Positions 27,273-46,344 of a stretch of 64,000 nt of DNA are shown piece after piece (position 1 is the first letter of the stretch; every line of letters starts with the position of its first letter). Position numbers and translations under genes: made by a program. The stretch is from Candidatus Peribacteria bacterium (GTDB lineage Bacteria > Patescibacteriota > Gracilibacteria > UBA1369 > 2-02-FULL-48-14). The stretch spans positions 1-64,000 of the forward strand of contig CALRGE010000002.1 in the NCBI GenBank assembly GCA_943357175.1. Direction: 5' to 3'. The notes beneath the pieces are model-generated. The model was not told where the DNA came from. It saw only the letters and a program-made list of their open reading frames with translations, and did not search any database.

Positions 27273-28673
27273 ATGAAATTACATTTCTACGGAGCAGCCA
27301 AGGAGGTTACAGGTTCAAGACATATTGTTGAAGTTGCAGGCAAGAAAATCCTTATGGATTGCGGCCTTTATCAGGGTCGACGTAAAGATGAAGTTGATAG
27401 AAACAAGAATTTCGGCTTCGATCCAAAAGAAATCGATATTGTAATAATTTCACATGCGCACATTGATCACTCAGGAAATCTTCCAAACCTGGTAAAACAG
27501 GGTTTTAATGGTCCAATTTATTGTACAAAACCAACAGCAGAGCTACTAGCATATATGTTGCTTGATTCTGCTCACATTCAAGAAGTTGAAGTTGAATATT
27601 TGAACGAAAAAAAGATGGCAGCGGGTGAGGAGCTTGTTGAACCACTTTACGTTACAGAAGATGTTCATGCCACTTTGCCACTGATTAGACCTGTATCTTA
27701 CGAAGAATGTTTAATGATAACACCTGAGGTTTCAGCTTGTTTTCATGAAGCAGGTCACATTATTGGGTCTGCAATTACAGTACTTACTATGAAAGAAAAC
27801 GGAGTAGAAAAAACTCTAGCTTATACTGGTGATCTTGGTCGAGTTAATATGCCTCTGATTCAAAATCCTTATCAGGTTGAAAAAGTGGATTATTTGATGA
27901 TTGAATCGACTTACGGAAATCGTCTACATGATTCACTTAATGATGCTGAAAAAGACCTTGAAGATACTGTTAAAAAAACAGTAGCTAGGGGTGGAAAAAT
28001 CTTAATTCCGGCATTTTCTCTCGGTAGAACTCAGGAAATTATATATGCACTTCACAAACTATCCGATGAAGGCAGAATACCTGAAAATCTACCGATTTTT
28101 GTTGATTCACCTTTATCTGTAAATTTAACTCAAGTTTTCCGTGCCAATCCTCAAGTTCTTGATCAAGAAACTCACACTGATTTCTTAGATAAAAACGAAG
28201 ATCCTTTCAAGTTTAATCTCTTGAAGTACGTGACTTCAGTTGAAGAATCTAAGGCTTTAAATAATTTAAACGGTCCTGCGATTATTATTTCAGCTTCAGG
28301 AATGATGGAACATGGACGTATTTTGCATCACCTAAAAAACAATATCTCTGATCACAAAAATACATTAATTGTTGTTGGTTATCAGGCTGCAAACACATTG
28401 GGTAGAAAAATTGTTGATAAACAGAAAGAGGTTAAAATTTTCGGTAAACCTGTGCATGTTGGTATGCAAATAAAAATTATGAATGCATACTCTGCTCATG
28501 CCGATAAAAATGATCTACTAGATTACATCAGCAAAGTTGATGGATTAAAGAAAATCATTCTTGTCCACGGAGAAGAAGATTCTCAAGGTGCTTTGAAGCA
28601 ATCTTTGCTCGAAGCTGGTAGAAAAGACGACGAAGTCTTCATTCCGAACTTTGGAGATACTCTAGATCTTTAA
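27273..28673 (+). CDS. Metallo-beta-lactamase/beta-CASP ribonuclease
   Basis: 466 aa, typical of stand-alone beta-CASP RNA nucleases related to the CPSF73/Ysh1 group. Motifs in order: SHAHIDHSGNLP (HxHxDH), HEAGHIIGSA, LAYTGDLGR, IESTYGNR, GRTQEIIYALH, SASGMMEHGRILHHL and MNAYSAHADKNDL. It likely processes or degrades RNA. A TATAAT box at 27244-27249 precedes the ATG by 23 bp; the -35 region is poor. It shares 4 bp with the end of the convergent sortase gene. Confidence 0.93.
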   Translation: MKLHFYGAAKEVTGSRHIVEVAGKKILMDCGLYQGRRKDEVDRNKNFGFDPKEIDIVIISHAHIDHSGNLPNLVKQGFNGPIYCTKPTAELLAYMLLDSAHIQEVEVEYLNEKKMAAGEELVEPLYVTEDVHATLPLIRPVSYEECLMITPEVSACFHEAGHIIGSAITVLTMKENGVEKTLAYTGDLGRVNMPLIQNPYQVEKVDYLMIESTYGNRLHDSLNDAEKDLEDTVKKTVARGGKILIPAFSLGRTQEIIYALHKLSDEGRIPENLPIFVDSPLSVNLTQVFRANPQVLDQETHTDFLDKNEDPFKFNLLKYVTSVEESKALNNLNGPAIIISASGMMEHGRILHHLKNNISDHKNTLIVVGYQAANTLGRKIVDKQKEVKIFGKPVHVGMQIKIMNAYSAHADKNDLLDYISKVDGLKKIILVHGEEDSQGALKQSLLEAGRKDDEVFIPNFGDTLDL

Positions 28674-33002: not shown

Positions 33003-34604
33003 TCAATAAACCTCTGCTAAATAACAATCCTTGCAGAAGACTTTTTCAGTTTGATTAGGGTCAACAGTGCTCATAATTTGTTTTGAGCATTTATCACAAT
33101 TTCTTTGCGCCAAATCAATTTGATTTCGTTTTTTCTGTCGAGCTTTGTGTCTGCAAAGTGGGCAATTTTGTGGGTGTGGAATTCCGTTCTGCGCATAAAA
33201 ATCAATCTCTTGTGGGATCAATTTGTAGCTCTTATTACAATCAGAGCAGCTTAAATTTGCATCAGATTTTACGGCATCCTCCACGTCTCGCCATTTGTAT
33301 CCAGCCGCCAAAACTTCTTCTTTGCTGAGTGGAAAAAGATCCATCGCCAAAGTGTCGTTGTATGCATGAGGAGATAAATTTTTTGGGAAAAATTGACCAT
33401 ATTCGCCTGATGCAGTCATTTGAGAAATAATTTTTGCTTTCAAAGCTCGATACTCTTTTTCTGAATACTGCTTATTAAAAATACAGAATTTTTTTCGCTT
33501 TAAGCCCACGCATCCAAAAACTTCATCACAACCCGTGCATGAAAAACAATATTCCATGTTTGAATTGTTCGTTGTGCAAGTACTGCAAAATTTCAAATTA
33601 TAAGCGCCGTCGCCGGTAGCAGTACATTGATAAACTAACTCGGCTTTGCTACCCCAAGAAGTATAATCCATGCAATCTTTAACCGGTCCAATCAATCGTG
33701 CACAATATTTACAATCTTCTAAATCTCTAGAATCAAAACACCAAGAGCTATTTTTTGAGTTGTACAAATGATCACCTAGCGAATTTTGATTTTGTTCCTC
33801 GTGTAAATCTCGCACAGGCTGAGTTTTGAAAAACTCCTCACATTTTTCCCGCAAATTTCCCAAACCAGACGAACTTTCTAAATTCAAATCCGCCTTCATT
33901 GCCAAGTATTCTTCCTTTGAATACTGCTTGTTAAAAATCATGTACTGCTTCTGGCGCTGATTCACGCAGCCAATACAATCCTGACAAGCAATACAGTCTT
34001 TCAAAAAGTAACTATCGTGACAATTTTTGCAATCTTGAGAATATTTAAGCCTTTGGCAGCCGGAGCAATCAATGCATTCGTAGCAAAGTTCACTCTCATA
34101 AATAGTTGAACAATCGAAAGTATTTTTACAGTAATAAATTCGGTTAGAAAAATAGCAATCTTCATCATAATCTGCTTCGCCAATCAGATAGCAATTTTTC
34201 AAATACCCGGTGCAATTTGTGAAATCGCTATTTTCCAGCGTGTCTCCAATCACAAATACAGACATCTGTGGAACTCTATTTCGCAGCGCTTCAAATTGTT
34301 CAAAAAACGGCCGCCCAAAATCAAAATCGACTCCGTAATTCATTGCGTCCCATTCATCACTCCACCAAATTTTCTGATCATAAACCGGAAAAGGCACACT
34401 TGGCGAATACTGCGACACAATCTTTTTCCCTGATAAATCACAATTTCTATAGAACAAATTCTTTGAATTTCGCTCAGTTAGTCTCCGCACAAGCCTGCAC
34501 TTTGGACAATCCACCGGTGCTGGCACCGAAATTCGCTGATAGTAAGCCGACTCGGTGTCATCAATCTCGAATGATACTTGGCAGTTTTGGCAGGGTTTTA
34601 ACAT
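33003..34604 (-). CDS. Large Cys-rich CxxC-repeat protein (paralogue 1)
   Basis: 533 aa with zinc-ribbon-like ends: CQNCQVSF and CPKCRLVRR at the N-terminus, CPLCRHKARQKKRNQ and CDKCSKQ at the C-terminus. The middle has many CxxC and CxNC pairs at regular spacing (CYECIDCSGC, CKNCHDSYFLKDC, CIACQDCIGC), consistent with a repetitive metal-binding or beta-helical fold. A module with IFNKQYSKEEY occurs twice, so the protein has an internal duplication. I know this type from CPR genomes; its function is unknown. Confidence 0.75.
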   Translation of the reverse strand: MLKPCQNCQVSFEIDDTESAYYQRISVPAPVDCPKCRLVRRLTERNSKNLFYRNCDLSGKKIVSQYSPSVPFPVYDQKIWWSDEWDAMNYGVDFDFGRPFFEQFEALRNRVPQMSVFVIGDTLENSDFTNCTGYLKNCYLIGEADYDEDCYFSNRIYYCKNTFDCSTIYESELCYECIDCSGCQRLKYSQDCKNCHDSYFLKDCIACQDCIGCVNQRQKQYMIFNKQYSKEEYLAMKADLNLESSSGLGNLREKCEEFFKTQPVRDLHEEQNQNSLGDHLYNSKNSSWCFDSRDLEDCKYCARLIGPVKDCMDYTSWGSKAELVYQCTATGDGAYNLKFCSTCTTNNSNMEYCFSCTGCDEVFGCVGLKRKKFCIFNKQYSEKEYRALKAKIISQMTASGEYGQFFPKNLSPHAYNDTLAMDLFPLSKEEVLAAGYKWRDVEDAVKSDANLSCSDCNKSYKLIPQEIDFYAQNGIPHPQNCPLCRHKARQKKRNQIDLAQRNCDKCSKQIMSTVDPNQTEKVFCKDCYLAEVY

Positions 34605-34645
34605 TTAATTCTGCAGTCTTTAATTGATGCTATATTTACAGATTT

Positions 34646-35026
34646 TTAAACAATATGCCAGCACTGAGGCTCAGCTTTTTCAAAAACCTCCCTGTATAAG
34701 GCTAAAGTTGTAGAGCTATATTCTGGTAAACGCGAGTTAAATTCAACTTTTGTATATGGCCTGTGATCTAAATAGCTTCCATAAACTCTATCGCAAAATT
34801 CACGATACGCTCGAGTATCTAAAATATGAGCATGCCAAACTTTATCAATTGGTAGGGAATACATCGGCAGCTCACCTGCATGATGAAGTCTAAGAATTAA
34901 ATACTTCTTATATTCAGAAATTAACTCCAACACTTCATCTTCTGCAAATCCAAGTTTTTCCAAGCGTGGAATTAAGAAGCTTAAATCTTCATTCTCTATT
35001 TGTTCTGTCTGAAATTGTTTATTCAT
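34646..35026 (-). CDS. Glycine-rich-domain-containing-protein-like (GRDP/DUF1399) protein
   Basis: 126 aa. The segment LPIDKVWHAHILDTRAYREF and then YGSYLDHRPYTK carries the D-x-x-WHAH...Y...C...G...H-x-P pattern of the GRDP-like family (PF07173-type). Helical, soluble and of unknown role. It lies between the two Cys-rich paralogues on the same strand and probably shares a regulatory context with them. Confidence 0.75.
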   Translation of the reverse strand: MNKQFQTEQIENEDLSFLIPRLEKLGFAEDEVLELISEYKKYLILRLHHAGELPMYSLPIDKVWHAHILDTRAYREFCDRVYGSYLDHRPYTKVEFNSRLPEYSSTTLALYREVFEKAEPQCWHIV

Positions 35027-35150
35027 TGTAAGTGATAATTAACAAGATAATAATCACTATTTAAACCTTATCTTAAAATATGTAAAACAAATGCTGTCAG
35101 CAGTTACTAACGACAAAAATCAGTTTTTTAAGTTCTGACGATAATTTAAT

Positions 35151-36788
35151 CTAATAAACAGCCTCAAGATAACATTTCTCACAATAAACGGTCTCTAGCC
35201 TTTCAGGAGCGTAGGAGGTTTGAAAAGTATTTTGACAATCAGCATTCATGCACTGGCGGTTCCAAAATTGCATTAGTGGCATTGATTGAACTCTTTCTAT
35301 GTATCGGCAGTTTGGGCATTTTTGTGGAGTAGAAATGCTATATTTTTGGTAGAAGTCTTTTTCTTGTTTAATCAATTTAAAGTGCTTATTGCATTCCAAG
35401 CAGATTTTTAAATCTTCAGATTCCGAAATGGAACGCACATTATCTTCAATTTCTTTCCACTGCCATCCTTCATTTTCGGCTTCTTCTTTTGTACAAGGAA
35501 AATAAGTATATGCCAAAGATTCGTTGTAAGCATAAGGAGAAATTGCAGTAGGGAAAAACTCTCCCCACTCACCAGATTCAATCATATTTTTTATTATCAC
35601 AGTCATGAGCTCCTCATATTCATCTTTACTATATTGTTTATTCAGTATGCAATATTCCTTATATTTTAGCCCTTCACAGCCAAAGCAATTTTTGCAATTA
35701 CGACAAGAAATACAGTAATAACAATCCTGGTCTGCAGTTACGTAAACCATAAAAGCACTGTCATGACAGCTCGCCGAACCGATTTGTTCATAGCCGTTCA
35801 CCATGTTCAGTCCTGCAATTGTAGAGTCATGCACGTTGGTGGTTTGAGCGCCTCCAAGTTCGCAATAGCGGCTGTCTTGTTGGTCAAAAAGATCATATGA
35901 ATCAAAACAATTTTTGCAATTTCTCAAAATATCACCAGTACAATTTTCCGTATTAGTATTACGAGCATATTTGTAAATTGCTTTTGCTTTTATTTCTTCA
36001 AATTTCTCCTTAAATTCAGCTAGTTTTTCTGCTGATGCAAGTATGCCACGAGTTTTTTCTTCATACTCTTCTTTGTTCAATTGTTCGTTAAGAAACATAT
36101 ATTCTTTATGTTTTTGCCCGATACATCCAAAACAATTTTTGCAAGAACTGCAATCAATTAAAAAGGAGCTGTTTTGACAATTTTCACAAAACTGGCAATA
36201 AAAAGATTCGTAACAGTTCACGCAACTTATGCATTGATAAGTATAGCTGCACATAAGATTAGCCTCGCCATCAACATCAAGTTGAGAGGCGAAAGCTACA
36301 CGTGAATAAAGACAGTTTTGGCTCTCCCACGGTGCAAAACATAAATAACAATCTTTGGAATTTCCACCATAATTACAGAAATCACAGTTAATCATGTTGT
36401 CGGGAATATGCAGTGCTTTCTTTGGAACAAGTTTTTGCAGTTCTGAAAACTGTTCAAAAAAAGATCGAGTCGGGTCGTATTCTCGCCCATAATCCATTGG
36501 ATCCCATGCATCGCTTTCCCATTCTTTGTGCTGAAAAACCTTGAATGGCTTGTCATTCGAATAAACAGAGATAATTTCACGGCCTGTAAGATCACATTTT
36601 CTCTTATAAAGACTCCGTTCATTGCGAAAACTCATTCTCCGTTGACGTCTGCATTCAGGACATAATGTTGGAGCAGGTATTGTAAATTGTTCATTGTTAA
36701 AAGTCGGCGAAATACTCTCATAGAATTTTATATCTTCCGGAAAAACCGTGAAGCCCTTACCACAGTGTTTACAATTTTTCTCCATCAA
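35151..36788 (-). CDS. Large Cys-rich CxxC-repeat protein (paralogue 2)
   Basis: 545 aa, same architecture as the gene at 33003-34604: N-terminal CKHCGKGF ribbon and CPECRRQRRMSFRNERS, a Cys-dense centre (CENCQNSSFLIDC, CKNCFGCIGQK, CYYCISCRNCKNC), and C-terminal CPNCRYIERVQSM with a further four-Cys ribbon. The duplicated module appears as LNEQLNKEEY and LNKQYSKDEY. The two are clearly homologous over their whole length but strongly diverged. Start ATG is 36788; Met2 at 36785 is an alternative. Confidence 0.75.
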   Translation of the reverse strand: MMEKNCKHCGKGFTVFPEDIKFYESISPTFNNEQFTIPAPTLCPECRRQRRMSFRNERSLYKRKCDLTGREIISVYSNDKPFKVFQHKEWESDAWDPMDYGREYDPTRSFFEQFSELQKLVPKKALHIPDNMINCDFCNYGGNSKDCYLCFAPWESQNCLYSRVAFASQLDVDGEANLMCSYTYQCISCVNCYESFYCQFCENCQNSSFLIDCSSCKNCFGCIGQKHKEYMFLNEQLNKEEYEEKTRGILASAEKLAEFKEKFEEIKAKAIYKYARNTNTENCTGDILRNCKNCFDSYDLFDQQDSRYCELGGAQTTNVHDSTIAGLNMVNGYEQIGSASCHDSAFMVYVTADQDCYYCISCRNCKNCFGCEGLKYKEYCILNKQYSKDEYEELMTVIIKNMIESGEWGEFFPTAISPYAYNESLAYTYFPCTKEEAENEGWQWKEIEDNVRSISESEDLKICLECNKHFKLIKQEKDFYQKYSISTPQKCPNCRYIERVQSMPLMQFWNRQCMNADCQNTFQTSYAPERLETVYCEKCYLEAVY

Positions 36789-36922
36789 AGGTACTTTAGC
36801 ACACTTTGGAGCTCCGTGGTGGAGGATGTTAGAACTAATTTTATATTAGGTAAAAGTTTAGAATTCTCCACAAGTATTCTAAACATTCTTTAATTGCAAA
36901 TTCAGTGTGTGAGTCACATTTA

Positions 36923-37318
36923 TCAGTTTCTTTGAAGTTTATTAATGGTTCTATGAAATTCCTCAACTTTTTCTGCCGCCCCTTCTTTTAGTGGAAGTAT
37001 CTTATTATCCACTCTTAGTTTAATAATTGCGTCACAAAAACCCCACATAATATCTGCGATAATTAACAATTTATTTTTAACAACCATAGAGCCCATCACA
37101 TCAAAAAAATTAACAATTAGTTTATCTTTCCCATCAGATACAGCAGTATTAACTACTGCAGTGTGCAAGTTTGCATGTGCACCATAATTATTAAAATGCT
37201 CATTGTACATTTTTATTACATCATTAAGTGGTTTAAATTTATCCTCTATTAATTGGTATGCCTTGGCTTTTATTATTTGTCCAATATAGTCATCAAAGGT
37301 GAACATATTTTTAGCCAT
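36923..37318 (-). CDS. Hypothetical protein
   Basis: 131 aa starting MAKNMFTFDDYIGQIIKAKA. Mostly helical, slightly basic, no signal peptide, no recognised motif. AT-rich. Placed between the Cys-rich paralogue and an SLH gene on the same strand. Confidence 0.5.
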   Translation of the reverse strand: MAKNMFTFDDYIGQIIKAKAYQLIEDKFKPLNDVIKMYNEHFNNYGAHANLHTAVVNTAVSDGKDKLIVNFFDVMGSMVVKNKLLIIADIMWGFCDAIIKLRVDNKILPLKEGAAEKVEEFHRTINKLQRN

Positions 37319-37379
37319 ATCAATCTAAAGTTACTAGATATAATCCTAATTTCTTATATCGTGTCATTTGGGGTCTCTT

Positions 37380-38576
37380 TTATAATGTCAGGAGTCTATA
37401 AAGATTTTCACTTATACCTGCTCTCTTCATCTCTCCATTCGGAAGAAAATCTCCAGAAGATTCTTCAAGGAGACCAAGTGATTCTGCGGTAAATACATAT
37501 GGTGCAAACCATTCTGCAGTATCAACATCTTCAAATTTAGTCTGATATGTCCCAACCAACTCAGTAGATTGAGAATTTAGCAGCATTTTTAATGCTTCCA
37601 CTTTATTGACAGTACTTGCAGGTCTAAAAGTACCATCTGGATAGCCGCTAACCCATCCTTCTTGCTTGGCGTAACATACATACTTTGCATACCAGTCATC
37701 TGTGACATCAGGAAAACAATTAGAATATATGGTTTGATCTGGATTTATATCTTTACCTTCAACTAGAATTTTTAGAAGTTCAGCTCTGTTAATCATTGCA
37801 TTAGGTTTAAATGTCCCATCCTCGTAACCACTTACAATTCCATTTTTATACAGATAGATGATTGCATTGAAGTTAATATTATTTGCCTCTAAATCTGAAA
37901 AAGTTGGACTATCTAAAAAGCAGTCGAGCTTTTGGTTATCATATGAATAACCTTCAGGGCATGTCCAACCTTCACCTGGTTGAAGTATACCAAAATAACT
38001 TGGTGTATAACATGAACCATTAGTTAAATCATAAATTCCATTGGAATCATTGCACGCACCTTCAAATAGAGAGGTTGTTCCTAGTTTACTTATTTTTAAA
38101 TCTAAATCTTGTATTATCACTCCGAAAGCTAAATCAATCAAATGTTTGTATTCGCTATTTTCAGAATCATTAGGCATAAGCGCCCAATCTCTCCATATAT
38201 TCCTTGACTCTGCTTGTAGTTGGCTTATTAGTTCTTCATCTGAATAGGAAGATAAAATATTGTTAATGATATTCGCTTTTGCTTTTCCATAAGTTAAAAG
38301 CTGATACCAAATATAATCAGATGTAAAAGTAGAACTTTCATCATAGCACATCTCTGTTTCCCAGTAGCTTGTAGAACTATCTTCCCATCCATCCTCACAA
38401 ATAACACTACCATCAGAATAATCAGGGCCCGCACTACAATTTACTCCTCCATGATAAGAACATGCCCCACTTGTTGCTAAGACATAATTTAGGTTAACAC
38501 TAAACAATGCACCAAAAATTATAAATATTCCTAAGATCCTTATGTAATGAATAGAAGAATAAAATTTAGTCATCAC
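37380..38576 (-). CDS. Secreted SLH protein with Cys-rich N-terminal region
   Basis: 398 aa. Signal/anchor helix at ~12-35, then GACSYHGGVNCSAGPDY and further Cys (a YHYH-like GACSxHGGV box found in other secreted bacterial proteins). Three SLH repeats at the C-terminus: ~230-285 (IVSGYEDGTFKPNAMINRAEL), ~290-345 (WVSGYPDGTFRPASTVNKVEA) and a final partial one. It should sit on the outer surface. Start ATG 38576 or Met2 38573. Confidence 0.8.
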   Translation of the reverse strand: MMTKFYSSIHYIRILGIFIIFGALFSVNLNYVLATSGACSYHGGVNCSAGPDYSDGSVICEDGWEDSSTSYWETEMCYDESSTFTSDYIWYQLLTYGKAKANIINNILSSYSDEELISQLQAESRNIWRDWALMPNDSENSEYKHLIDLAFGVIIQDLDLKISKLGTTSLFEGACNDSNGIYDLTNGSCYTPSYFGILQPGEGWTCPEGYSYDNQKLDCFLDSPTFSDLEANNINFNAIIYLYKNGIVSGYEDGTFKPNAMINRAELLKILVEGKDINPDQTIYSNCFPDVTDDWYAKYVCYAKQEGWVSGYPDGTFRPASTVNKVEALKMLLNSQSTELVGTYQTKFEDVDTAEWFAPYVFTAESLGLLEESSGDFLPNGEMKRAGISENLYRLLTL

Positions 38577-38582
38577 TTATAT

Positions 38583-39650
38583 TTAAGGTCTTTCCTGATA
38601 AAAATCTGCATATCCCTTTTCTCTATATGTTTTTAAACCATTATTATTAAGTACAAATATACTAAAATATGGACCGTAATAATTAAAACTATAATCACTT
38701 ATTGAGGGGCCATAATACTCATCATCATTGCCGAACGGGTCCATAAATCTCTCCTTTTCTAGCATTTTAGCTTTCTTTTCCTCAAAATTTTTGACGATTC
38801 TATCCCATTCGCCCATATCATCAATATTCTCATCTGATAGGTTACATACATATGAATATTGTTTCATTTCTTTGTTAATATCTTTCCAATCTTTCCACGA
38901 ATCTTTTCTGTTATTAACGACGAGAGATTGCTTATATGAATCTGTTGCATATAAGCAAAGATTTAAAAACTTTGATGGTATTTTGTGTTCGTAGGAGAAA
39001 TACATTAAAGGAAAACTTGATATGTGTTCATATGTTTGAAACACCGCTAAGCCTTCTTTCTTGAAGAGATGGGGTGTTAAGCTCTTAGGATATTCACCAA
39101 TCTCAAGTTTTAACAAACCATTCACCATAAAAAGTCGTAACTCAATAGCCTCTGTAATCCATCTAGGCTCACTAGCAGCATTTTTTACATCCAGATATGG
39201 TATTACTATAGAATGATAAAGTCTGTCATCAAAGTCCACCTCACCATTCTTCCAAAGTAAATTACCCTTAATGTTAAATCTTAATTCTTCAATTGTAGAA
39301 TCTTTCCCATACTTTTTTTTGTAATTTTCAAGTAGTTGAGTTTTCCACTTTTCTGGATCTTTTGCTTTGATTAATTTGCTTTTATTTAAAACCTTATGAA
39401 GTTGACTTATTGCTGGATGTTTAAAGACATTTACTAGATCTATATCGACATCAATGCGGCAGTTACAAGATCTCTCAGGTAGCAGTTCATTAGTTAGTGT
39501 GAAAATTCCTTTACCCAACAAGGCCAAGTGAACTTCTGAAGCACGGAAGAAGAGCCAAATTAAAAGCACAGAACCAAAAAGATTATAACCGAGGTAGTAA
39601 GAGCAAAAAACGCCCACTCCAATGATAATACTGAGAATTTTTGAAAACAT
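38583..39650 (-). CDS. Membrane-anchored hypothetical protein
   Basis: 355 aa. Two short hydrophobic helices at the N-terminus (IIIGVGVFCSYYLGYNLFGS, VLLIWLFFRA) and a long soluble Lys/Tyr-rich region with no recognised domain. It ends 6 bp before the SLH gene, so the two are probably co-transcribed. It is divergent from the XRE regulator of the integrated element; which side of the element boundary it belongs to is unresolved. Confidence 0.55.
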   Translation of the reverse strand: MFSKILSIIIGVGVFCSYYLGYNLFGSVLLIWLFFRASEVHLALLGKGIFTLTNELLPERSCNCRIDVDIDLVNVFKHPAISQLHKVLNKSKLIKAKDPEKWKTQLLENYKKKYGKDSTIEELRFNIKGNLLWKNGEVDFDDRLYHSIVIPYLDVKNAASEPRWITEAIELRLFMVNGLLKLEIGEYPKSLTPHLFKKEGLAVFQTYEHISSFPLMYFSYEHKIPSKFLNLCLYATDSYKQSLVVNNRKDSWKDWKDINKEMKQYSYVCNLSDENIDDMGEWDRIVKNFEEKKAKMLEKERFMDPFGNDDEYYGPSISDYSFNYYGPYFSIFVLNNNGLKTYREKGYADFYQERP

Positions 39651-39694
39651 ACAATATTAATTTGTACTAAGTAAATTAAGCATACCATATCCGA

Positions 39695-39712
39695 TTTTGG
39701 GATATTCCAAAA
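39695..39712. promoter_or_regulatory. 18-bp palindrome before the XRE gene
   Basis: TTTTGGGATATTCCAAAA, symmetrical except for one central mismatched pair. It lies between the divergent genes at 39650 and 39733 and is a likely operator for the adjacent XRE regulator. Confidence 0.6.
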
Positions 39713-39732
39713 GGGGATTTAACATTCCCTTC

Positions 39733-39948
39733 ATGAGCAGTATACATTCCAAAGATTACAGGTTAATGATCGAGCGCCTTAGGAAGGCCAGAATTGCTTC
39801 TGGATTTACTCAGTTGCAGGCTGCAGTGGCCCTTAATAAACCTCAGTCTTTCATTTCTAAGGTAGAGAATCATCAAAGACGTATAGACGTATTGGAGCTT
39901 AAAGACTTTGCCAAGATCTATAAGATAGATGTTTCAAAGTTACTGTAA
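39733..39948 (+). CDS. XRE-family helix-turn-helix regulator
   Basis: 71 aa from ATG 39733; a TTG 12 codons upstream lies inside the palindrome and is less likely. Residues ~11-65 are a Cro/C1-type HTH: IERLRKARIASGFTQLQAA then PQSFISKVENHQRRIDV and ELKDFAKIYKIDVSKLL. It is the first gene of the element and probably controls lysogeny-like maintenance or the divergent promoter. Confidence 0.88.
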   Translation: MSSIHSKDYRLMIERLRKARIASGFTQLQAAVALNKPQSFISKVENHQRRIDVLELKDFAKIYKIDVSKLL

Positions 39949-39990
39949 GTATCAAGCGTTATTATTGACAAATAATAGCATTTCTTCAAA

Positions 39991-41151
39991 ATGCATTTGT
40001 TAAATATGAATATAAAAATGCTAGATCCAGATGAGTTAAATCGACGTTTTCATGTGATTTTAGAAGTGATCAAAAATCCACTTCAATCAGATGGACCTTT
40101 AAGCGCCGAATTTAGGACTGGAAGTATACTCGCTGAACGTATTCATGATTACATTGATTATGCTAAACAATTTGAAGCGATAGGACTCTTGCAGCATGAT
40201 GCAGCTAATAATCTTAAAGCTTTCGAATCTCTACAGAAGATTGCAATGACAGATCTTGATATAATTCTATTAGAAATAATGAAGCGTATTGAAGATAATG
40301 GCTTGAGCTCTAATAATTTTACACAGATTTTTAATAATTTTAATCGTTATAAGTCGAATGAAATTTACGATCGGGAATGGAGGCATAGTCCTATCGGCGA
40401 TGGTTGGGAAAACAAACAAGCTCTTGAGCTTATGTTCAGCTGTATTATTGATATTTGTAGAGAATTGGTAGGTTCTGGCCAACAGATATTAATTCAAGAC
40501 TACTTAGAGTTTAAAAATGAAGAGGCAAAAATGCGTAATGAAGGAGATGTAAAAGTACCGATGACTTATTCTATTGCCTTAGCAGAACTTAAGAGATTTA
40601 GGGAATCTTTACTCGGCAGAAGGTATAGAGCTTGGCAATTACTAGATGATGTATATCAACTTGTGACCATCGGGCATAAGTTTCTTTATGAATACGCACA
40701 ATACTTTTTTAATGAAGCACACATTTATTCTTTTAAACTGACCACTATTCATAATTTCTTACTTCTTCCACCTTTTCAGGGTATTAAAGACATATCAGAT
40801 GCCGAGGAACTAGTTCTATGGAGTGATGGAAAGAATAAAATCAGTTTTTCTTCTGGGTATTTAAGATTTAATTCATATAATGTTCGTGCGTTAATGAAAA
40901 ATAAGATACCCATTAGGATTTTTGACGTGGGAAGAAAACAAAAATCCCTCTACTTATCCGCAGAAGTATTACATACAAAATTTAAAGAAGAATACGGGCA
41001 TTGCCTTCAAACAATTCAAAAAAATAGGAATGGAATTCTAAATGCTTTTAAAAAACATGCCAATTCACAAAATACTCAACTCCCAGAAACATTTTGTGAA
41101 AAATTTCTTTCTACGGAAAACGGAGGCCTATACCTAGGACAAGAAAATTAG
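39991..41151 (+). CDS. Hypothetical element protein
   Basis: 386 aa from ATG 39991 (Met6 at 40006 and Met10 at 40018 are alternative starts). Largely helical, soluble, Lys/Asn-rich. It has a Trp/Arg-rich YDREWRHSPIGDGWENKQ segment but no recognised catalytic motif. It follows the XRE gene by 42 bp. Role unknown. Confidence 0.55.
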   Translation: MHLLNMNIKMLDPDELNRRFHVILEVIKNPLQSDGPLSAEFRTGSILAERIHDYIDYAKQFEAIGLLQHDAANNLKAFESLQKIAMTDLDIILLEIMKRIEDNGLSSNNFTQIFNNFNRYKSNEIYDREWRHSPIGDGWENKQALELMFSCIIDICRELVGSGQQILIQDYLEFKNEEAKMRNEGDVKVPMTYSIALAELKRFRESLLGRRYRAWQLLDDVYQLVTIGHKFLYEYAQYFFNEAHIYSFKLTTIHNFLLLPPFQGIKDISDAEELVLWSDGKNKISFSSGYLRFNSYNVRALMKNKIPIRIFDVGRKQKSLYLSAEVLHTKFKEEYGHCLQTIQKNRNGILNAFKKHANSQNTQLPETFCEKFLSTENGGLYLGQEN

Positions 41152-41256
41152 ATTAAGGGATTAAGGTAATATTTTACCCTGTTAGACAGGATTGATTATG
41201 GGCTGATTAAGGGTCAGTTCTCTTTTAGCATATAACCATACTTTTTAATTATAAAT

Positions 41257-41535
41257 ATGAAAATAATAGAAAAAGACGATGGTCGTTACTGGAAAACAAG
41301 TTCTTTCAATACATCAGCATATCTTTTGTGCAAGGGGTTTGAACTTGTAAATATCACTCCTTTGGATAATCCAAAAAAGAAAGAATTTGTATTTTGTGAT
41401 AGGCCTGAAAGAGAGCAAGTACTTCATAATTTTAGTTTTTCTGGAGAAGATGATCCTGAAGTAATGGTAGATGCACGTAAACTTATTTTGTGTATCCGAG
41501 TTTTGAAGGAAAAGCTTTATAGTAACCAATTCTGA
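41257..41535 (+). CDS. DUF5659-like small protein
   Basis: 92 aa. SFNTSAYLLCKGFELVNITP ... KEFVFCDRP ... VDARKLILCIRVLKEKLY fits the DUF5659 pattern (a start with T..LAAyL...G, a hydrophobic F-x-F strand, then VDAr.y...i..LK..l). Such proteins occur in phages, plasmids and CPR elements; function unknown. The stop is one base from the next start. Confidence 0.55.
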   Translation: MKIIEKDDGRYWKTSSFNTSAYLLCKGFELVNITPLDNPKKKEFVFCDRPEREQVLHNFSFSGEDDPEVMVDARKLILCIRVLKEKLYSNQF

Positions 41536-41536
41536 A

Positions 41537-41707
41537 ATGTTAAAACCCGAAACAATCCGGGACTTTCAAGAAGCCTACCTAAAGGACTTCGGGAAATCTA
41601 TCACTGAAGAAGAGGCTGAGGAATTGGGCCACTCATTACTTACTCTTTTGAATATTTTTTATAGACCTATACCAGCCAGCCAAATTGATGCCAACAAACC
41701 ACCTTAA
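41537..41707 (+). CDS. Small protein, element-type, 56 aa
   Basis: ATG 41537 follows the TGA of the upstream gene directly. MLKPETIRDFQEAYLKDFGK then SITEEEAEELGHSLLTLLNI and a short proline-rich end. This helical small protein resembles ones often found on mobile elements and integrative plasmids (KxxxxFxxLYxxxFGxxLSxExAxExAxxLLxLxxxIYxPI). The coupling and conserved look support it as a real gene. Function unknown. Confidence 0.65.
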   Translation: MLKPETIRDFQEAYLKDFGKSITEEEAEELGHSLLTLLNIFYRPIPASQIDANKPP

Positions 41708-41757
41708 AAGGGGTCGAATTACCTGCCTTGCAAGCTCGATACTTTAACCCCTTAAAA

Positions 41758-41898
41758 ATGCACAACAATTATATCCAAAAAATCCTAAATCATCCAGCAA
41801 TTCGCAACTCAACAGCAAGTCATCGTCGGCATGTTGTACACGGCACGCGCCCATTTGCCGGCTATACATTTTATGCCTACTGGGCTAGGCACAGATAA
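41758..41898 (+). CDS. Small basic protein, 46 aa
   Basis: Begins MHNNYIQKILNHPAIRNSTA and ends FAGYTFYAYWARHR, rich in His, Arg and aromatic residues. It is on the same strand, 50 bp downstream of the 56-aa gene and 37 bp before the ssDNA-binding-like gene. No family recognised; codon usage is consistent with the flanks. Called mainly on context. Confidence 0.4.
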   Translation: MHNNYIQKILNHPAIRNSTASHRRHVVHGTRPFAGYTFYAYWARHR

Positions 41899-41935
41899 TA
41901 TCAAAACCCTTTTATAATTTTTAACAATAAACAAT

Positions 41936-42337
41936 ATGTCAAAGTTTTCAATTCCTTTCTACAACCAAATCCTTATCTCTGAAGGCTGTTATGAAGTCTT
42001 GATTAAAGATATGCAGCTCGGTACCAATAAATTTAACCAGAAGGAGCAGATAAGAGTAATTTTTGAATTTCTTGATTCCGGATTTCCCGACAAATCAGAT
42101 AAAAAAGCTACGATCTCGGCTTACTATACAAAAACACTCCACCCGACCGGCAATCTTGTAGCAAAATTCATAAAGCCACTTTTAGGAGATATCCCAACTG
42201 AAGAAGAGTCAGGAAGCAGTGAGTTCGAGTTAGATCAATTTCTTGGAAAGAAATGTGAGATACAGATCGTTCATCACATCAAAGAAGACTGTGAAATCAT
42301 CGCCGTCGTGAATCAAGTTAATCGAATCCTTCTTTAA
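41936..42337 (+). CDS. Phage-type ssDNA-binding (OB-fold-like) protein, tentative
   Basis: 133 aa, beta-rich. The features YEVLIKDMQLGTNKFNQKEQ, IRVIFEFLDSG, a conserved-type LHPTGNLVAKFIKPLLGD and FLGKKCEIQIVHH match the DUF669-like group of phage single-strand-binding proteins, in which the paired strands and S-x-L-x-K-x-L box occur in this order. It lies 14 bp before the replication ATPase, as such proteins do. Confidence 0.5.
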   Translation: MSKFSIPFYNQILISEGCYEVLIKDMQLGTNKFNQKEQIRVIFEFLDSGFPDKSDKKATISAYYTKTLHPTGNLVAKFIKPLLGDIPTEEESGSSEFELDQFLGKKCEIQIVHHIKEDCEIIAVVNQVNRILL

Positions 42338-42351
42338 ATAATTAAATTAAA

Positions 42352-43875
42352 ATGAATATTATTCTGGAATACATCTCGGATAAACAATCCAATGATCAGT
42401 TCATTTATCTGAATGGCCAAATTGCCGGTAAGTGCTATCAAATAGTTTTCGTCCAATACGAAGAAGAATTTAAGCCATTTATTTTATTCGATGACGGTTT
42501 GAGTCTACAGGTTGAAAGTGATAAAAGCGGCCATTATTTTATCTTTGGAGAGAAAACATATAGGTTCTTGAATGGTCCCAATCTTGAATTTAAATCTGGC
42601 TTAGTCTATTCTGCCTCAACTGATGCTTTCCGTGCAGTAGTAGAAAGAAGTCTTCCAGATAAGGAAAAACTATATAAAGATCTCACATCTGTCCTTTACG
42701 ATTACTATGACTTTTATTGTGAAGAGGAGAGGCGAATCGTTGCAGCTCACATAATTCAAAGTTATTTAATTGGCTCAATAGGAAGTACTTTCTATCTTCT
42801 TTTAGAGGGTTTTGTGAGTAGTGGTAAGAGCACTTTGCAACGCGTTATGGCATTATTGCAGTATAACGGTTGCTTTGTTGGACAGATTACAATCCCGGTT
42901 TTAGCTAGGAAAATTCATTGTCTCCAATCCACTGTTAATATAGATGAATTTGATAAAGTTTTTACTCAAAAAGACGAAAGGAAAAAAGCTCTGGGCGTAC
43001 TAGACACGGGTTTCTATGCAGGTGGGACTTATGAAATTACGAACATGAATCAGAAGAAGACCAAGGATCAAATCCAGGTTTTTCAGACTTTCTCCACTAA
43101 AACATTTAGTGGGAATAGAGTTCAACTCAGTTCTTCTCTAAATAGTCGATGTGTAACGATTCATACTGTTCGTGGCAATAGATCGACAAAGAACATAAAC
43201 GGAATGAATGTTGAGGATCTAAAACGTATTGAGAAACTTAGAGATGACATATTTGTATATACATTACTGCAGGGTAGATCTTTCTTGAATCATTTCCAAT
43301 CTGTTCAGGAAGAACTAAGTCAGTCTGAAATATTTGGAAGAAATGCAGATATTCTTTCGATCATTTTAGCAGTCGAAAAAGAGTTTGATCAGGATGATAA
43401 AGTCAAACAATACTTAATGGAGAAACAGGTGATTGACGAAGAAGATTCAAAGGATAACGACAGAGTTTATATAGCTTACTCATTTCTTTTGGATAAGTGC
43501 AGAATCGGTACACAGGTCAATGAAATCAATTTCACAAATTCTGCCCTTGTTGACCATATAAATGTGGCTACTGGAATGAAAGATTCTGATGAGGAAACAG
43601 ATTACTCTTCATGGAGCAATCAATCTCAGTATTCGGCTACTCCAAGTAGTGTTGGGAAATTATTGAAAGTACATAAGATAGTAAGTAAAAGCGAAGAGCG
43701 CGAAAGAATAAGTTCAGGTCCAGATAAAGGCCGATGGAGATATAAAATATCCAAGTCAAAGATCTTAGATCTTATCAAACGCTCTGCTTATCGTGAGCTA
43801 CAGAATGCTGCTAAAGAAACTGAAGATTGGTTAACAACTCCAACGAAGAGCGACAATGACTCTCTACCATTTTAA
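42352..43875 (+). CDS. P-loop replication ATPase (phage/plasmid helicase-primase-like)
   Basis: 507 aa. Walker A is LEGFVSSGKSTLQRVM (~159-174), Walker B is STVNIDEFDKVF (~200-211). The sensor-like segment QVFQTFSTKTFSGNRVQLSS and an Arg (SLNSRCVTIHT) follow, as in DUF3631-type or SF3-like helicases of phages and plasmids. The ~150-residue N-terminal domain (YDYYDFYCEEERRIVAAHIIQSY joins the ATPase) is not recognised as a primase. The C-terminal ~110 residues are winged-helix-like (WRYKISKSKILDLIKRSAY). It probably drives element replication. Confidence 0.65.
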   Translation: MNIILEYISDKQSNDQFIYLNGQIAGKCYQIVFVQYEEEFKPFILFDDGLSLQVESDKSGHYFIFGEKTYRFLNGPNLEFKSGLVYSASTDAFRAVVERSLPDKEKLYKDLTSVLYDYYDFYCEEERRIVAAHIIQSYLIGSIGSTFYLLLEGFVSSGKSTLQRVMALLQYNGCFVGQITIPVLARKIHCLQSTVNIDEFDKVFTQKDERKKALGVLDTGFYAGGTYEITNMNQKKTKDQIQVFQTFSTKTFSGNRVQLSSSLNSRCVTIHTVRGNRSTKNINGMNVEDLKRIEKLRDDIFVYTLLQGRSFLNHFQSVQEELSQSEIFGRNADILSIILAVEKEFDQDDKVKQYLMEKQVIDEEDSKDNDRVYIAYSFLLDKCRIGTQVNEINFTNSALVDHINVATGMKDSDEETDYSSWSNQSQYSATPSSVGKLLKVHKIVSKSEERERISSGPDKGRWRYKISKSKILDLIKRSAYRELQNAAKETEDWLTTPTKSDNDSLPF

Positions 43876-43876
43876 G

Positions 43877-43948
43877 TTCACTCCTTCACCACTTGTTCAT
43901 TCACCAAAAAATAACAGATCAAAAGTGAACAAGTGAAGGAGTGAAGGA
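43877..43948. repeat. Inverted repeat with three 8-bp iteron-like direct repeats
   Basis: Right arm (43925-43948) is three tandem 8-mers: GTGAACAA, GTGAAGGA, GTGAAGGA. The left arm (43877-43903) holds the complement, TTCACTCC, TTCAC and TTGTTCA plus TTCAC, so the block folds as a long imperfect hairpin with a 21-nt loop. It directly follows the replication ATPase stop. Candidate replication origin or ATPase-binding site; a terminator is less likely because no T-run follows. Confidence 0.6.
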
Positions 43949-43978
43949 CGTATACCCCATTACTTAAGTAACCAAATT

Positions 43979-44164
43979 ATGACAATACAGAGCCGTATAA
44001 ATAAATTAGAGACCAGCCTGCAAAATAATCCCATCATGAAGCAAAGACATGGCTCTTGGATACTATCGATGAGCAATAAAGAACTTGAAGAAGTTGCCGG
44101 GGTAAAATCCGCTTCATATAGCAATATATCTGACGATGAACTCATATTATTCATTTATAACTAG
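43979..44164 (+). CDS. Small hypothetical element protein
   Basis: 61 aa starting MTIQSRINKLETSLQNNPIM, with SMSNKELEEVAGVKSASYSN in the second half. Hydrophilic, helical; no family recognised. It lies between the iteron block and the zinc-finger-like gene, 4 bp upstream of the latter. Confidence 0.5.
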   Translation: MTIQSRINKLETSLQNNPIMKQRHGSWILSMSNKELEEVAGVKSASYSNISDDELILFIYN

Positions 44165-44168
44165 TCTC

Positions 44169-44540
44169 ATGCAGTGCAAATACTTAAAAACGGATGGAGA
44201 GCAGTGTGGAGCAAATGCTTTAATAATTGGTGACTACTGTTTTACACATTCCCCTGATATGGAAGTAGAAAGGCAATTGGCAACATCAAAAGGTGGAAAG
44301 CATAGCTATAAAGAAGCTTTAGTGATCACAGGAGAAAAAAGTGTAAAAACAAGCAAAGATATTGCTGATCTTCTGGAATCTACTATCAACGAAGTTAGGG
44401 CTGGAAAACTTGATGTTAAGATAGCGAATTGTGTGGGTTATTTAGCTTCACATTTAATCAAAGCTATTGAAAGCGCAGATCTTGAAGAACGATTAGAAAA
44501 ACTTGAAGTTGAAGTTCACTTTATTAGTCCCAAAAAATAA
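44169..44540 (+). CDS. Small zinc-finger-like protein (CxxxxxxxC...CxxH)
   Basis: 123 aa from ATG 44169; an earlier ATG at 44136 would overlap the upstream gene and only adds residues before the conserved start. MQCKYLKTDGEQCGANAL then DYCFTHSPD gives C-x9-C...C-x2-H, a small zinc-binding motif seen in HGxxCRAPAxxGxxxCxxH-type proteins near integrases and terminases. Helical C-terminal half. Role on the element unknown. Confidence 0.6.
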   Translation: MQCKYLKTDGEQCGANALIIGDYCFTHSPDMEVERQLATSKGGKHSYKEALVITGEKSVKTSKDIADLLESTINEVRAGKLDVKIANCVGYLASHLIKAIESADLEERLEKLEVEVHFISPKK

Positions 44541-44601
44541 TATACATTTACATCGCTGTCCCATTTCCACTATCTAAACGGTTAGTTTTGTTGCTCAAAA
44601 T

Positions 44602-44655
44602 GGGTAACTCAGCTCACAAAATCCGTTTGGACTAGTGGGGCAGCCTGAGTTGCCC
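44602..44655 (+). other. 11-bp stem hairpin upstream of the recombinase
   Basis: GGGTAACTCAG (44602-44612) pairs with CTGAGTTGCCC (44645-44655), one G-U pair, loop 32 nt. It ends 24 bp before the recombinase ATG. It could be a 5'-UTR control structure for the recombinase or an attachment-like site; a terminator is unlikely. Confidence 0.45.
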
Positions 44656-44679
44656 TTCTTGGGTATTAATATCCTTAAT

Positions 44680-46281
44680 ATGAAATACTTCCTCTACCTC
44701 CGAAAATCCACAGAAGAAAAAGATAGACAAATTCTATCTATTGAATCCCAAAAGGATGAACTAAAGAAGCGATTTCCTGAATTAGAAATCGTAAAAGTGT
44801 TTGAAGAATCCAAGAGCGCATTCAAGCCATACAACAGGCCACTTTTCGCTGAAATGCTAGCTAGAATTCAAGAGGGTGAAGCTGATGGCATTGCGGCCTG
44901 GGACCCATCACGACTTTCAAGAAATCCTCTCGACGGAGCCCAAATAATTCACTTTCTAGACACAGGTGTCCTTAAAGATTTAAAGTTTGCATCCTATCAT
45001 TTCGATAATTCTCCGGAAGGCAAAATGATGTTAGCTTTTGCTCTTTCACAGTCTAAATATAGCTCAGATAAGTTAAGTAAAGATGTAATGAGAGGTATGA
45101 TAAAGAAGTGTGAAAAAGGGCATCGACCTGGTATGGCTCCTGTTGGATATATGAATGATTACTATGCTCTAAAGGGTGAGAAAAAGATTCTTATCGATCC
45201 TGAGCGTTTCGACTTGGTAAGAAAAATGTGGGATATGCTGCTATCAGGATGTTATTCAGTGCGTGATATTTGGAAAATTGCGTGCAATGATTGGCACTTT
45301 ACAACTTCAAGAAGTAAAAAAACGGGTGATGGAGAATTATGTCTTACGACCATGTATAAGATTTTCACAAACAAATTTTATTATGGTGAGTTTGATTGGG
45401 CTGGTCAGGAATATAAAAGTCAGCAATTGGCAATGATCACACATGAGGAATTCGATCGTGCACAGATTATTTTAGGTAGGAAAGGAAAGCCAAGACCACA
45501 AAAATATAGATTCCCATTCACCGGGATCATTAAGTGTGGGACTTGTGGTTGCATGGTCACGGCTGAACATAAACTTAAAAAAATTAAGAAAACAGGTCAA
45601 ACCAAGGCTTATACTTATTACCACTGCACTCATAAATCTAATGAGATCAAATGCAACGAAAAAAGTGTTGATGCGGAAACATTAGAGGAAAAGATAAAGG
45701 AAATTCTTGAATCCATAACTATTCCTGAGAATTTACTAAAATGTTCGATTGAACATTTGTCAGAGATTAACAATGCTGAATCAAAGGATAGGACTGTGGT
45801 CCAGTCTTCAGTGCAGAAAGCCTACAATGATTGTGTTAAGAAAATCGACAACCTGCTTAAGCTTTATATTTCAGCCGACAATGTAGATAAGTCTTTACTA
45901 TCAGAAGAAGAATTTAGAACCGAGAAATTGATCCTTATTAAAGAAAAGGAAAATTTATCCGCTCAATTGGGTGATTGTGATCAACGTGTAGATAACTGGC
46001 TTGAGTTAACCGAAAAGACTTTCAACTTTGTAGCCCACGCTAAATATCATTTCGAAACTGGGTCGATAGAGGAGAAAAAACTTGTTTTCCAAACACTTGG
46101 TCAGAACTTTTTGTTAAAAGACCAGAAATTAGGTGTTGAACTGCAATCTTCGTTCCTAAAAGTCCAAAAAGGCATGGAAACTATACGTGAGCGAAAAGGT
46201 TGGCTCTCACTCATTCTAAAAGGCGATCTAACCTGTGAAACCTCGAAAGGTAGGCAAATTCTTGAATTTTGGAGCGGGTGA
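44680..46281 (+). CDS. Large serine recombinase (integrase)
   Basis: 533 aa from ATG 44680 (an in-frame GTG at 44635 lies within the hairpin loop and is not chosen). Resolvase catalytic domain: MKYFLYLRKSTEEKDRQILS with the nucleophilic Ser10, and ADGIAAWDPSRLSRNPLD with the conserved Arg pair. Recombinase domain: GMAPVGYMND ... SVRDIWKIA. Zinc ribbon: IKCGTCGCMVTAEH ... YYHCTHKS with a further Cys. A coiled coil follows near residues 355-470. The final residues EFWSG are encoded by the 3' end of tRNA-Gly. Confidence 0.95.
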   Translation: MKYFLYLRKSTEEKDRQILSIESQKDELKKRFPELEIVKVFEESKSAFKPYNRPLFAEMLARIQEGEADGIAAWDPSRLSRNPLDGAQIIHFLDTGVLKDLKFASYHFDNSPEGKMMLAFALSQSKYSSDKLSKDVMRGMIKKCEKGHRPGMAPVGYMNDYYALKGEKKILIDPERFDLVRKMWDMLLSGCYSVRDIWKIACNDWHFTTSRSKKTGDGELCLTTMYKIFTNKFYYGEFDWAGQEYKSQQLAMITHEEFDRAQIILGRKGKPRPQKYRFPFTGIIKCGTCGCMVTAEHKLKKIKKTGQTKAYTYYHCTHKSNEIKCNEKSVDAETLEEKIKEILESITIPENLLKCSIEHLSEINNAESKDRTVVQSSVQKAYNDCVKKIDNLLKLYISADNVDKSLLSEEEFRTEKLILIKEKENLSAQLGDCDQRVDNWLELTEKTFNFVAHAKYHFETGSIEEKKLVFQTLGQNFLLKDQKLGVELQSSFLKVQKGMETIRERKGWLSLILKGDLTCETSKGRQILEFWSG

Positions 46282-46344
46282 GGGGAATCGAACCCCTCTC
46301 AACAGCTTGGAAGGCTGTGGTAATAGCCAATATACGACACCCGC
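46270..46344 (-). tRNA. tRNA-Gly (UCC), CCA encoded
   Basis: Acceptor GCGGGTG pairs with CACCCGC; anticodon stem ACAGC/GCTGT with loop CTTCCAA, so anticodon UCC. The T-arm GGGGTTCGATTCCCC is canonical, and the discriminator T is followed by CCA (46272-46270). The last 12 bases are shared with the end of the serine recombinase on the opposite strand. Confidence 0.96.

Follow-up and report, generated by a model that had tools for sequence, protein, structure and literature searches.

Tyrosine integrases are the usual recombinases that target tRNA genes, and the SSV-type integrase also belongs to the tyrosine recombinases. Genomic islands of the tyrosine-integrase type (Islander) are described as insertions in the 3' end of a tRNA gene, which is restored (PubMed Central, PMC, article PMC4383910). 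A serine recombinase is known as well, the CcrB-like DsiB of the ssrA islands of Dehalococcoides, as presented in PMC3146451. In the streptococcal integrative and conjugative elements (ICEs) found in rumA, a single serine integrase has the attachment (att) site inside its own gene and its C-terminus is changed on integration, according to the description in PMC4701971. The integrase of Mx8, named there as a tyrosine recombinase, extends across the attachment site of its element (attP), and the Mx8 and SSV types are mentioned in both PMC4383910 and PMC4701971. It is already known from the rumA ICEs that attP can lie inside a serine integrase gene, and from Dehalococcoides that a serine recombinase can stand at ssrA; however, no description of serine integrases at tRNA genes in bacteria of the candidate phyla radiation (CPR), or of a serine integrase family using many tRNA genes, was recognised in searches of the open-licence PMC literature. 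The present analysis concerns a 64,000-nucleotide stretch (the window; contig CALRGE010000002.1, positions 1 to 64,000) from a Candidatus Peribacteria genome of 1.23 Mb in 20 contigs. It very probably contains an element of about 9.46 kb, positions 36807-46275, inserted in the 3' end of tRNA-Gly(TCC) by the large serine integrase which the element itself encodes.

As in the rumA elements, the att site would be placed in a serine integrase gene and integration would modify the C-terminus, but the rumA target is a protein gene and both reading frames are changed, while here the target is a tRNA gene and the frame runs into a conserved tail; this likeness is drawn from the published description. 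With the DsiB islands, as their account presents them, the locus has in common that a serine recombinase is found at the 3' portion of a tRNA-like gene, that the integrase gene overlaps the att site and that its stop is outside the island. In contrast to these islands, likewise compared by description, many tRNA isotypes, a 6-bp core in the CCA/acceptor stem and one recombinase are found here. Islander-type islands differ in the recombinase family, since the tyrosine integrase that defines them did not appear among the scanned window proteins, and the repeat common to both ends is here just about 6 bp. The Mx8 and SSV types also have attP in the integrase gene and a protein altered on integration, yet those are tyrosine recombinases.

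The integrase gene (44635-46281, plus strand) shows the Pfam order of a large serine integrase, with the Resolvase catalytic domain followed by Recombinase and a zinc ribbon (Zn_ribbon_recom), and it terminates within the tRNA gene. Translation probably begins with the in-frame ATG at 44674 and not with the GTG at 44635, because relatives begin with MKYF. The protein scores 77.4 bits with the NCBIfam CcrB equivalog, for which the cutoff is 900 bits, and is not assigned to it. The target gene, tRNA-Gly with anticodon TCC, was located by ARAGORN at 46270-46344 on the minus strand. It overlaps the integrase open reading frame (ORF) by 12 nt, and the final codons of this ORF, TGG AGC GGG TGA (W S G stop), correspond to the 3' end of the tRNA read in antisense. 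An earlier sequence-only reading had proposed a serine recombinase with its stop inside tRNA-Gly, giving a precise right junction, and this is borne out by ARAGORN, Pfam and the 12-nt overlap.

The core at this junction, TGGAGC at 46270-46275 (plus strand, attR), occurs again at 36807-36812 (plus strand, attL), with all six positions identical, and is the same as the antisense of the tRNA-Gly 3' end. The left end has DNA homology to the left end of an element in another genome, G032, whose integrase is about 61% identical to that of the window and is located at tRNA-Phe. Comparison with G033, a relative with the flanks of G032 but without the integrase, places that element between position about 5.3 kb of locus L056 and the tRNA, and homology between the two genomes restarts 33 bp outside the predicted left end. 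At position 5338 of L056 stands TGGTGC, the end of the tRNA-Phe of G032, followed by a motif similar at the DNA level to the window at 36807 and to the G026 element. Since in the window the left motif is opened by TGGAGC, the end of tRNA-Gly, the element should span 36807-46275. The left edge at 39651 drawn in the sequence-only reading does not hold; it is a mere gap between two divergent genes and was rejected because the att motif and the homologous element ends point to 36807, so that three minus-strand genes (36923-39650) lie inside the element. A search for the tRNA end as a long direct repeat found none, the 6-bp core being the only repeat common to both ends. The family-level comparison comprised six genomes, the window's own included. 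The tRNA-Gly(TCC) gene and RNase H (46345) are syntenic in four of the five others (G002-G005), and to the question whether relatives keep the same genes beside tRNA-Gly as core chromosome the answer was negative, as the integrase is absent beside this tRNA in all four.

The far end not only repeats the tRNA end but also continues the integrase frame, and for this reason attP is, as read from the sequence, within the 3' part of the integrase gene in the circular form. The segment 36807-36893 (plus strand) encodes a detached C-terminal tail, W followed by SSVVEDVRTNFILGKSLEFSTSILNIL and a stop, which comes into frame once the element ends are joined. Joining in silico leaves the frame unbroken and alters the C-terminus in the window (EFW SSVVEDVRTNF..., joined peptide WSSVVEDVRTNF); the frame is equally unbroken in G032 (WCSIVEDVRTGF, with the longer reading LWCSIVEDVRTGF...) and in G026 (WSSTVEDVRTG, with the longer reading YWSSTVEDVRTG...). 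In all 18 elements with both ends located, the far end runs on in the integrase frame into a conserved W..VxEDVRT tail. In relatives from Verrucomicrobia, Emticicia, a Bacteroidetes bin and a Planctomycetes bin the tail is contiguous in the ORF, and all 10 sequences that were aligned have the V and the R. The pattern used for the tail had no match in 1.28 Mb of shuffled strand-bases, and at least two evident false matches in real DNA (window 24734, minus strand, and L088). Integration would strip the integrase of its W..VEDVRT tail, leaving the tail at the opposite element end, and would give the integrase the tRNA-antisense ending W S G stop; it is inferred that this swap alters integrase activity. 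An uninterrupted tail with an apparent intact attP was also noticed at L113 (11567), on a 636-kb contig labelled Bacteroidetes, in an integrase that the tree nests among those of the CPR tRNA type.

Core positions 3-6 are identical in all 18 elements with both ends, while position 1 agrees in 16, position 2 in 13 and position 7 in 11. Positions 4-6 are those of the element's own tRNA in 18/18, against a permuted mean of 3.2 and maximum of 11 (0/20000 permutations). Five elements whose tRNA side has no encoded CCA nevertheless keep TGG at the far end, therefore exchange should occur to the right of position 2. The crossover would thus fall within positions 3-6, probably at the dinucleotide 5-6 (46274-46275 in the window). 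A putative zinc-ribbon (ZD) motif, GTTAGAAC, is present in the right arm of attP at 36828-36835 (plus strand, positions 22-29 from the core start), and its putative counterpart in attB, the site in the tRNA gene, is TCGAAC of the T-loop at 46288-46293 (plus strand, positions 19-24). When the antisense T-loop profile of the tRNAs was slid along the attP arms, the best fit was at +5 bp, both for all 25 arms (3.79, next -1.92) and for the 12 arms obtained independently of the tail pattern (6.63, next -9.92; 0/2000 column permutations as high). It has been described by Rutherford and colleagues (PMC3783163) that the zinc-ribbon motif of attB is closer to the crossover than that of attP by 5 bp, and the same displacement is seen here in the one half-site examined. 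The other attB half-site is ordinary chromosomal flank, where no motif was found among those tried. Most simply, the zinc ribbon would recognise the T-loop common to all tRNAs, with the core matched to each acceptor end. The integrase would then pair attP with a tRNA gene whose T-loop serves as the zinc-ribbon half-site of attB, strands would be exchanged within the first bases of the acceptor stem, and the CCA end and discriminator base would be supplied by the element, so that the tRNA stays intact.

An integrase match is present in 45 of 89 genomes of the same order, and in 25 of 30 order-level loci a convergent tRNA overlaps or closely abuts the integrase end; the exceptions are two loci at contig ends (L015, L024), one with unread letters near its end (L018), one with the tRNA 1 kb off (L028) and one with none (L029). 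An earlier scan of a genome collection with the window integrase alone gave 0 confirmed of 38 stretches. With nine integrases as queries 142 relatives were obtained, of which the best 80 were kept and 78 had enough downstream sequence; seven of the 80 records are order-level loci too and were left out of the tree. A convergent tRNA stands at the integrase end in 55 of these 78 loci compared with 11 of 970 other ORFs of at least 150 residues in the same loci. The isotypes at the junctions include Gly, Ser, Gln, Trp, Asn, Phe, Pro and His, and further Ala, Arg, Met, Leu, Tyr, Asp and Lys. Throughout this CPR-wide integrase family a tRNA site is the norm, and it is no peculiarity of the window locus. 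In a 99-row tree the window integrase groups with those of G026, G068 and G032 (100*); four changes separate the tRNA-junction and contiguous-tail states, and the contiguous forms nest among the tRNA forms. Records with the integrases nearest to that of the window are Peregrinibacteria, in agreement with the CPR host assumed from the sequence. When IMG/VR was scanned with the nine integrases for a free or viral form, 61 pattern matches were obtained and none could be confirmed, and in phage and plasmid collections the best matches listed have 22-25% identity, all 235 phage and 28 plasmid records being below 60%.

In a sister clade (L004, L005, L014, L015, L016, L017, L019, L020, L021, L022 and L167) the integrase gene is situated between inverted repeats of 85-150 bp, 91-100% identical. 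Among the 10 loci where a repeat and a tRNA were both detected, one repeat copy reaches 6 bp into the tRNA in 8 and 7 bp into it in L014, while in L022 it stops 21 bp short, which likewise places the exchange within positions 3-6. The other copy runs in frame into a VRT-type tail, as an intact attP does. The two copies match each other yet differ between genomes in the one pair compared, and contigs mostly break just past the outer repeat. It is possible, judging from this arrangement, that the integrase gene of the clade is self-inverting.

Several observations weigh against the proposed element and its tail. A pristine empty site was not found for the window element, the 8.1 kb to the left of 36807 (28.7-36.8 kb) consist of other variable DNA, and G033 carries 715 bp of different sequence at its site. 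Of the order-level elements of this type, 7 of 11 had a left end that could be located, as did 11 of 48 non-duplicate tRNA-positive collection loci; many of the missing ends are explained by contig ends or the 10-kb limit, those of L055 and L065 are not. There is no detected tRNA in 23 of the 78 collection loci, of which 12 were classed as tail-in-ORF (10 aligned, L139 and L160 by similarity); the others lack an explanation, or ARAGORN may have overlooked a tRNA in them. Excision to a circle is inferred, and the assembly shows no direct sign of it, as would be expected if the element were a dead remnant, integrated long ago by the same route and now immobile. This is unlikely, as no damage is seen in the main ORFs, the two core repeats or the integrase domains, and other family genomes lack the element at the same site. 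That some other recombinase made the insertion and the serine recombinase is a passenger deserves very little credence: a tyrosine-recombinase-like protein does exist in related elements of G004, G071 and G039 (L057:3194-4438 matches Phage_integrase and has homologues in L060 and L061), but the scanned window proteins gave no tyrosine recombinase match in Pfam or PHROGs, the gene at the junction is the serine integrase, on whose tree the tRNA-junction label clusters, and the T-loop displacement obeys the serine-integrase rule. Still harder to believe is that core chromosomal genes adjoin tRNA-Gly by chance; the synteny of tRNA-Gly and RNase H in four of the five family relatives would fit, but the element genes are absent beside tRNA-Gly in all four.

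The meaning of the tail is far less settled than the insertion itself. The prospect that the left-end tail is conserved solely as the DNA arm of attP, with an incidental ORF and no regulatory role of the integrase C-terminus, falls not far short of even. The putative zinc-ribbon motif GTTMGRAC falls on the VRT codons, which DNA binding alone could therefore conserve, and the tail is modelled as a disordered stretch: AlphaFold, run on 10 unsplit integrases, left it disordered, with a predicted local distance difference test (pLDDT) score below 50 for the tail region (508-580), and with such very low confidence a folded role is unsupported, which counts against a working tail. On the other side, third codon positions vary most in 25 tails (mean entropy about 1.46) and second positions least (about 0.23), a contrast inflated by the 13 tails picked by amino-acid pattern and to be taken as supporting evidence only, and verrucomicrobial and other relatives hold the tail in an uninterrupted ORF. 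The broadest proposal is that serine integrases throughout the CPR use the T-loop as attB, colonise almost any tRNA gene and control themselves by exchange of the C-terminus, the sister clade toggling between tailed and untailed forms by inversion; it is offered tentatively, as a possibility that we would rather expect to fail as a whole.

Within the element, three genes on the minus strand are divergent from the remainder and considered as cargo: a 131-residue protein without Pfam match (36923-37318), a 398-residue protein with two S-layer homology (SLH) stretches (37380-38576; PF00395, E 1.9e-28) and a 355-residue protein without matches (38583-39650). Restriction-modification proteins occupy this place in the elements of G026, G004 and G071. 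On the plus strand follow an XRE-type helix-turn-helix regulator (39697-39948; HTH_3, E 8.3e-09), a 386-residue protein with distant homologues in related elements (39991-41151), a 92-residue protein found also in the G032 and G045 elements (41257-41535; 49% and 46% identity) and a 56-residue backbone protein with homologues in several related elements (41537-41707). Next comes a 133-residue protein (41936-42337), 45% identical to a protein of the G026 element and weakly similar to replication-initiation or single-stranded DNA (ssDNA)-binding proteins (42.8 bits with the NCBIfam NGO0469 replication-initiation family, below the cutoff of 75). The 507-residue P-loop ATPase (42352-43875) has a weak PHROG ATPase match (E 0.0037), no match among PDB sequences and a resemblance, at 26% identity, to a Prim-Pol protein of the G045 element over the C-terminal half of the latter. 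Before the integrase, a 134-residue protein (44136-44540) with a Cys/His cluster read from its sequence has a homologue in the G011 element. In the corresponding region, related elements encode Prim-Pol, Toprim or DnaG-type zinc-finger proteins, therefore a replicating, plasmid-like free form is likely, maintained by the rep/ATPase module. In the element of G068, an open frame of more than 3300 codons (L055 9913-19899), without Pfam match in its first 1000 residues, is divergent from the replication module. PHROGs assigned the scanned window proteins to integrase/invertase, regulators, weak ATPase and DNA-binding families and one family of unknown function. The Pfam scan of window proteins gave no relaxase or capsid family, although divergent relaxases might escape it, and no structural or packaging genes appeared among the window proteins scanned with Pfam and PHROGs, where divergent genes might also be missed. 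An integrative element with a replication-type module, as supposed from the sequence, is hence upheld; of the module's parts the XRE regulator is confirmed by Pfam while the P-loop ATPase and ssDNA-binding-like protein have weak matches only, and the suggested phage satellite, with no capsid family in Pfam and no structural match in PHROGs, is unsupported.

The distance from the conserved upstream gene (27273-28673 in the window) to the tRNA is about 1.0 kb in G005, 7.5 kb in G003 and about 8.6 kb in G002, and in the window it amounts to 17.6 kb, therefore the flank of tRNA-Gly is a hotspot of variable DNA. Just outside the element, at 33003-36788, two paralogous minus-strand proteins of 533 and 545 residues are encoded, one with a weak zf_Tbcl match; their homologues lie beside tRNA-Gly in G004 (L052), and L058 has several copies of them. 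At the G004 locus (L052 2066, 2247) about 19 bp of the tRNA-Gly 3' end recur as a partial copy at a distance of 181 bp from the tRNA end, which may be a scar left by another element with a longer repeat. Serial left-end motifs beside one tRNA (L075 9229-12320; L131 731, 2423 and 3044) suggest successive insertions and partial losses at one site.

The finding defines a class of mobile elements of CPR bacteria, and three checked relatives carry restriction-modification genes. If the integrase family does read the T-loop, its attachment sites would be predictable in nearly every genome, and the idea that an integrase steers its own direction by swapping its C-terminus becomes testable.

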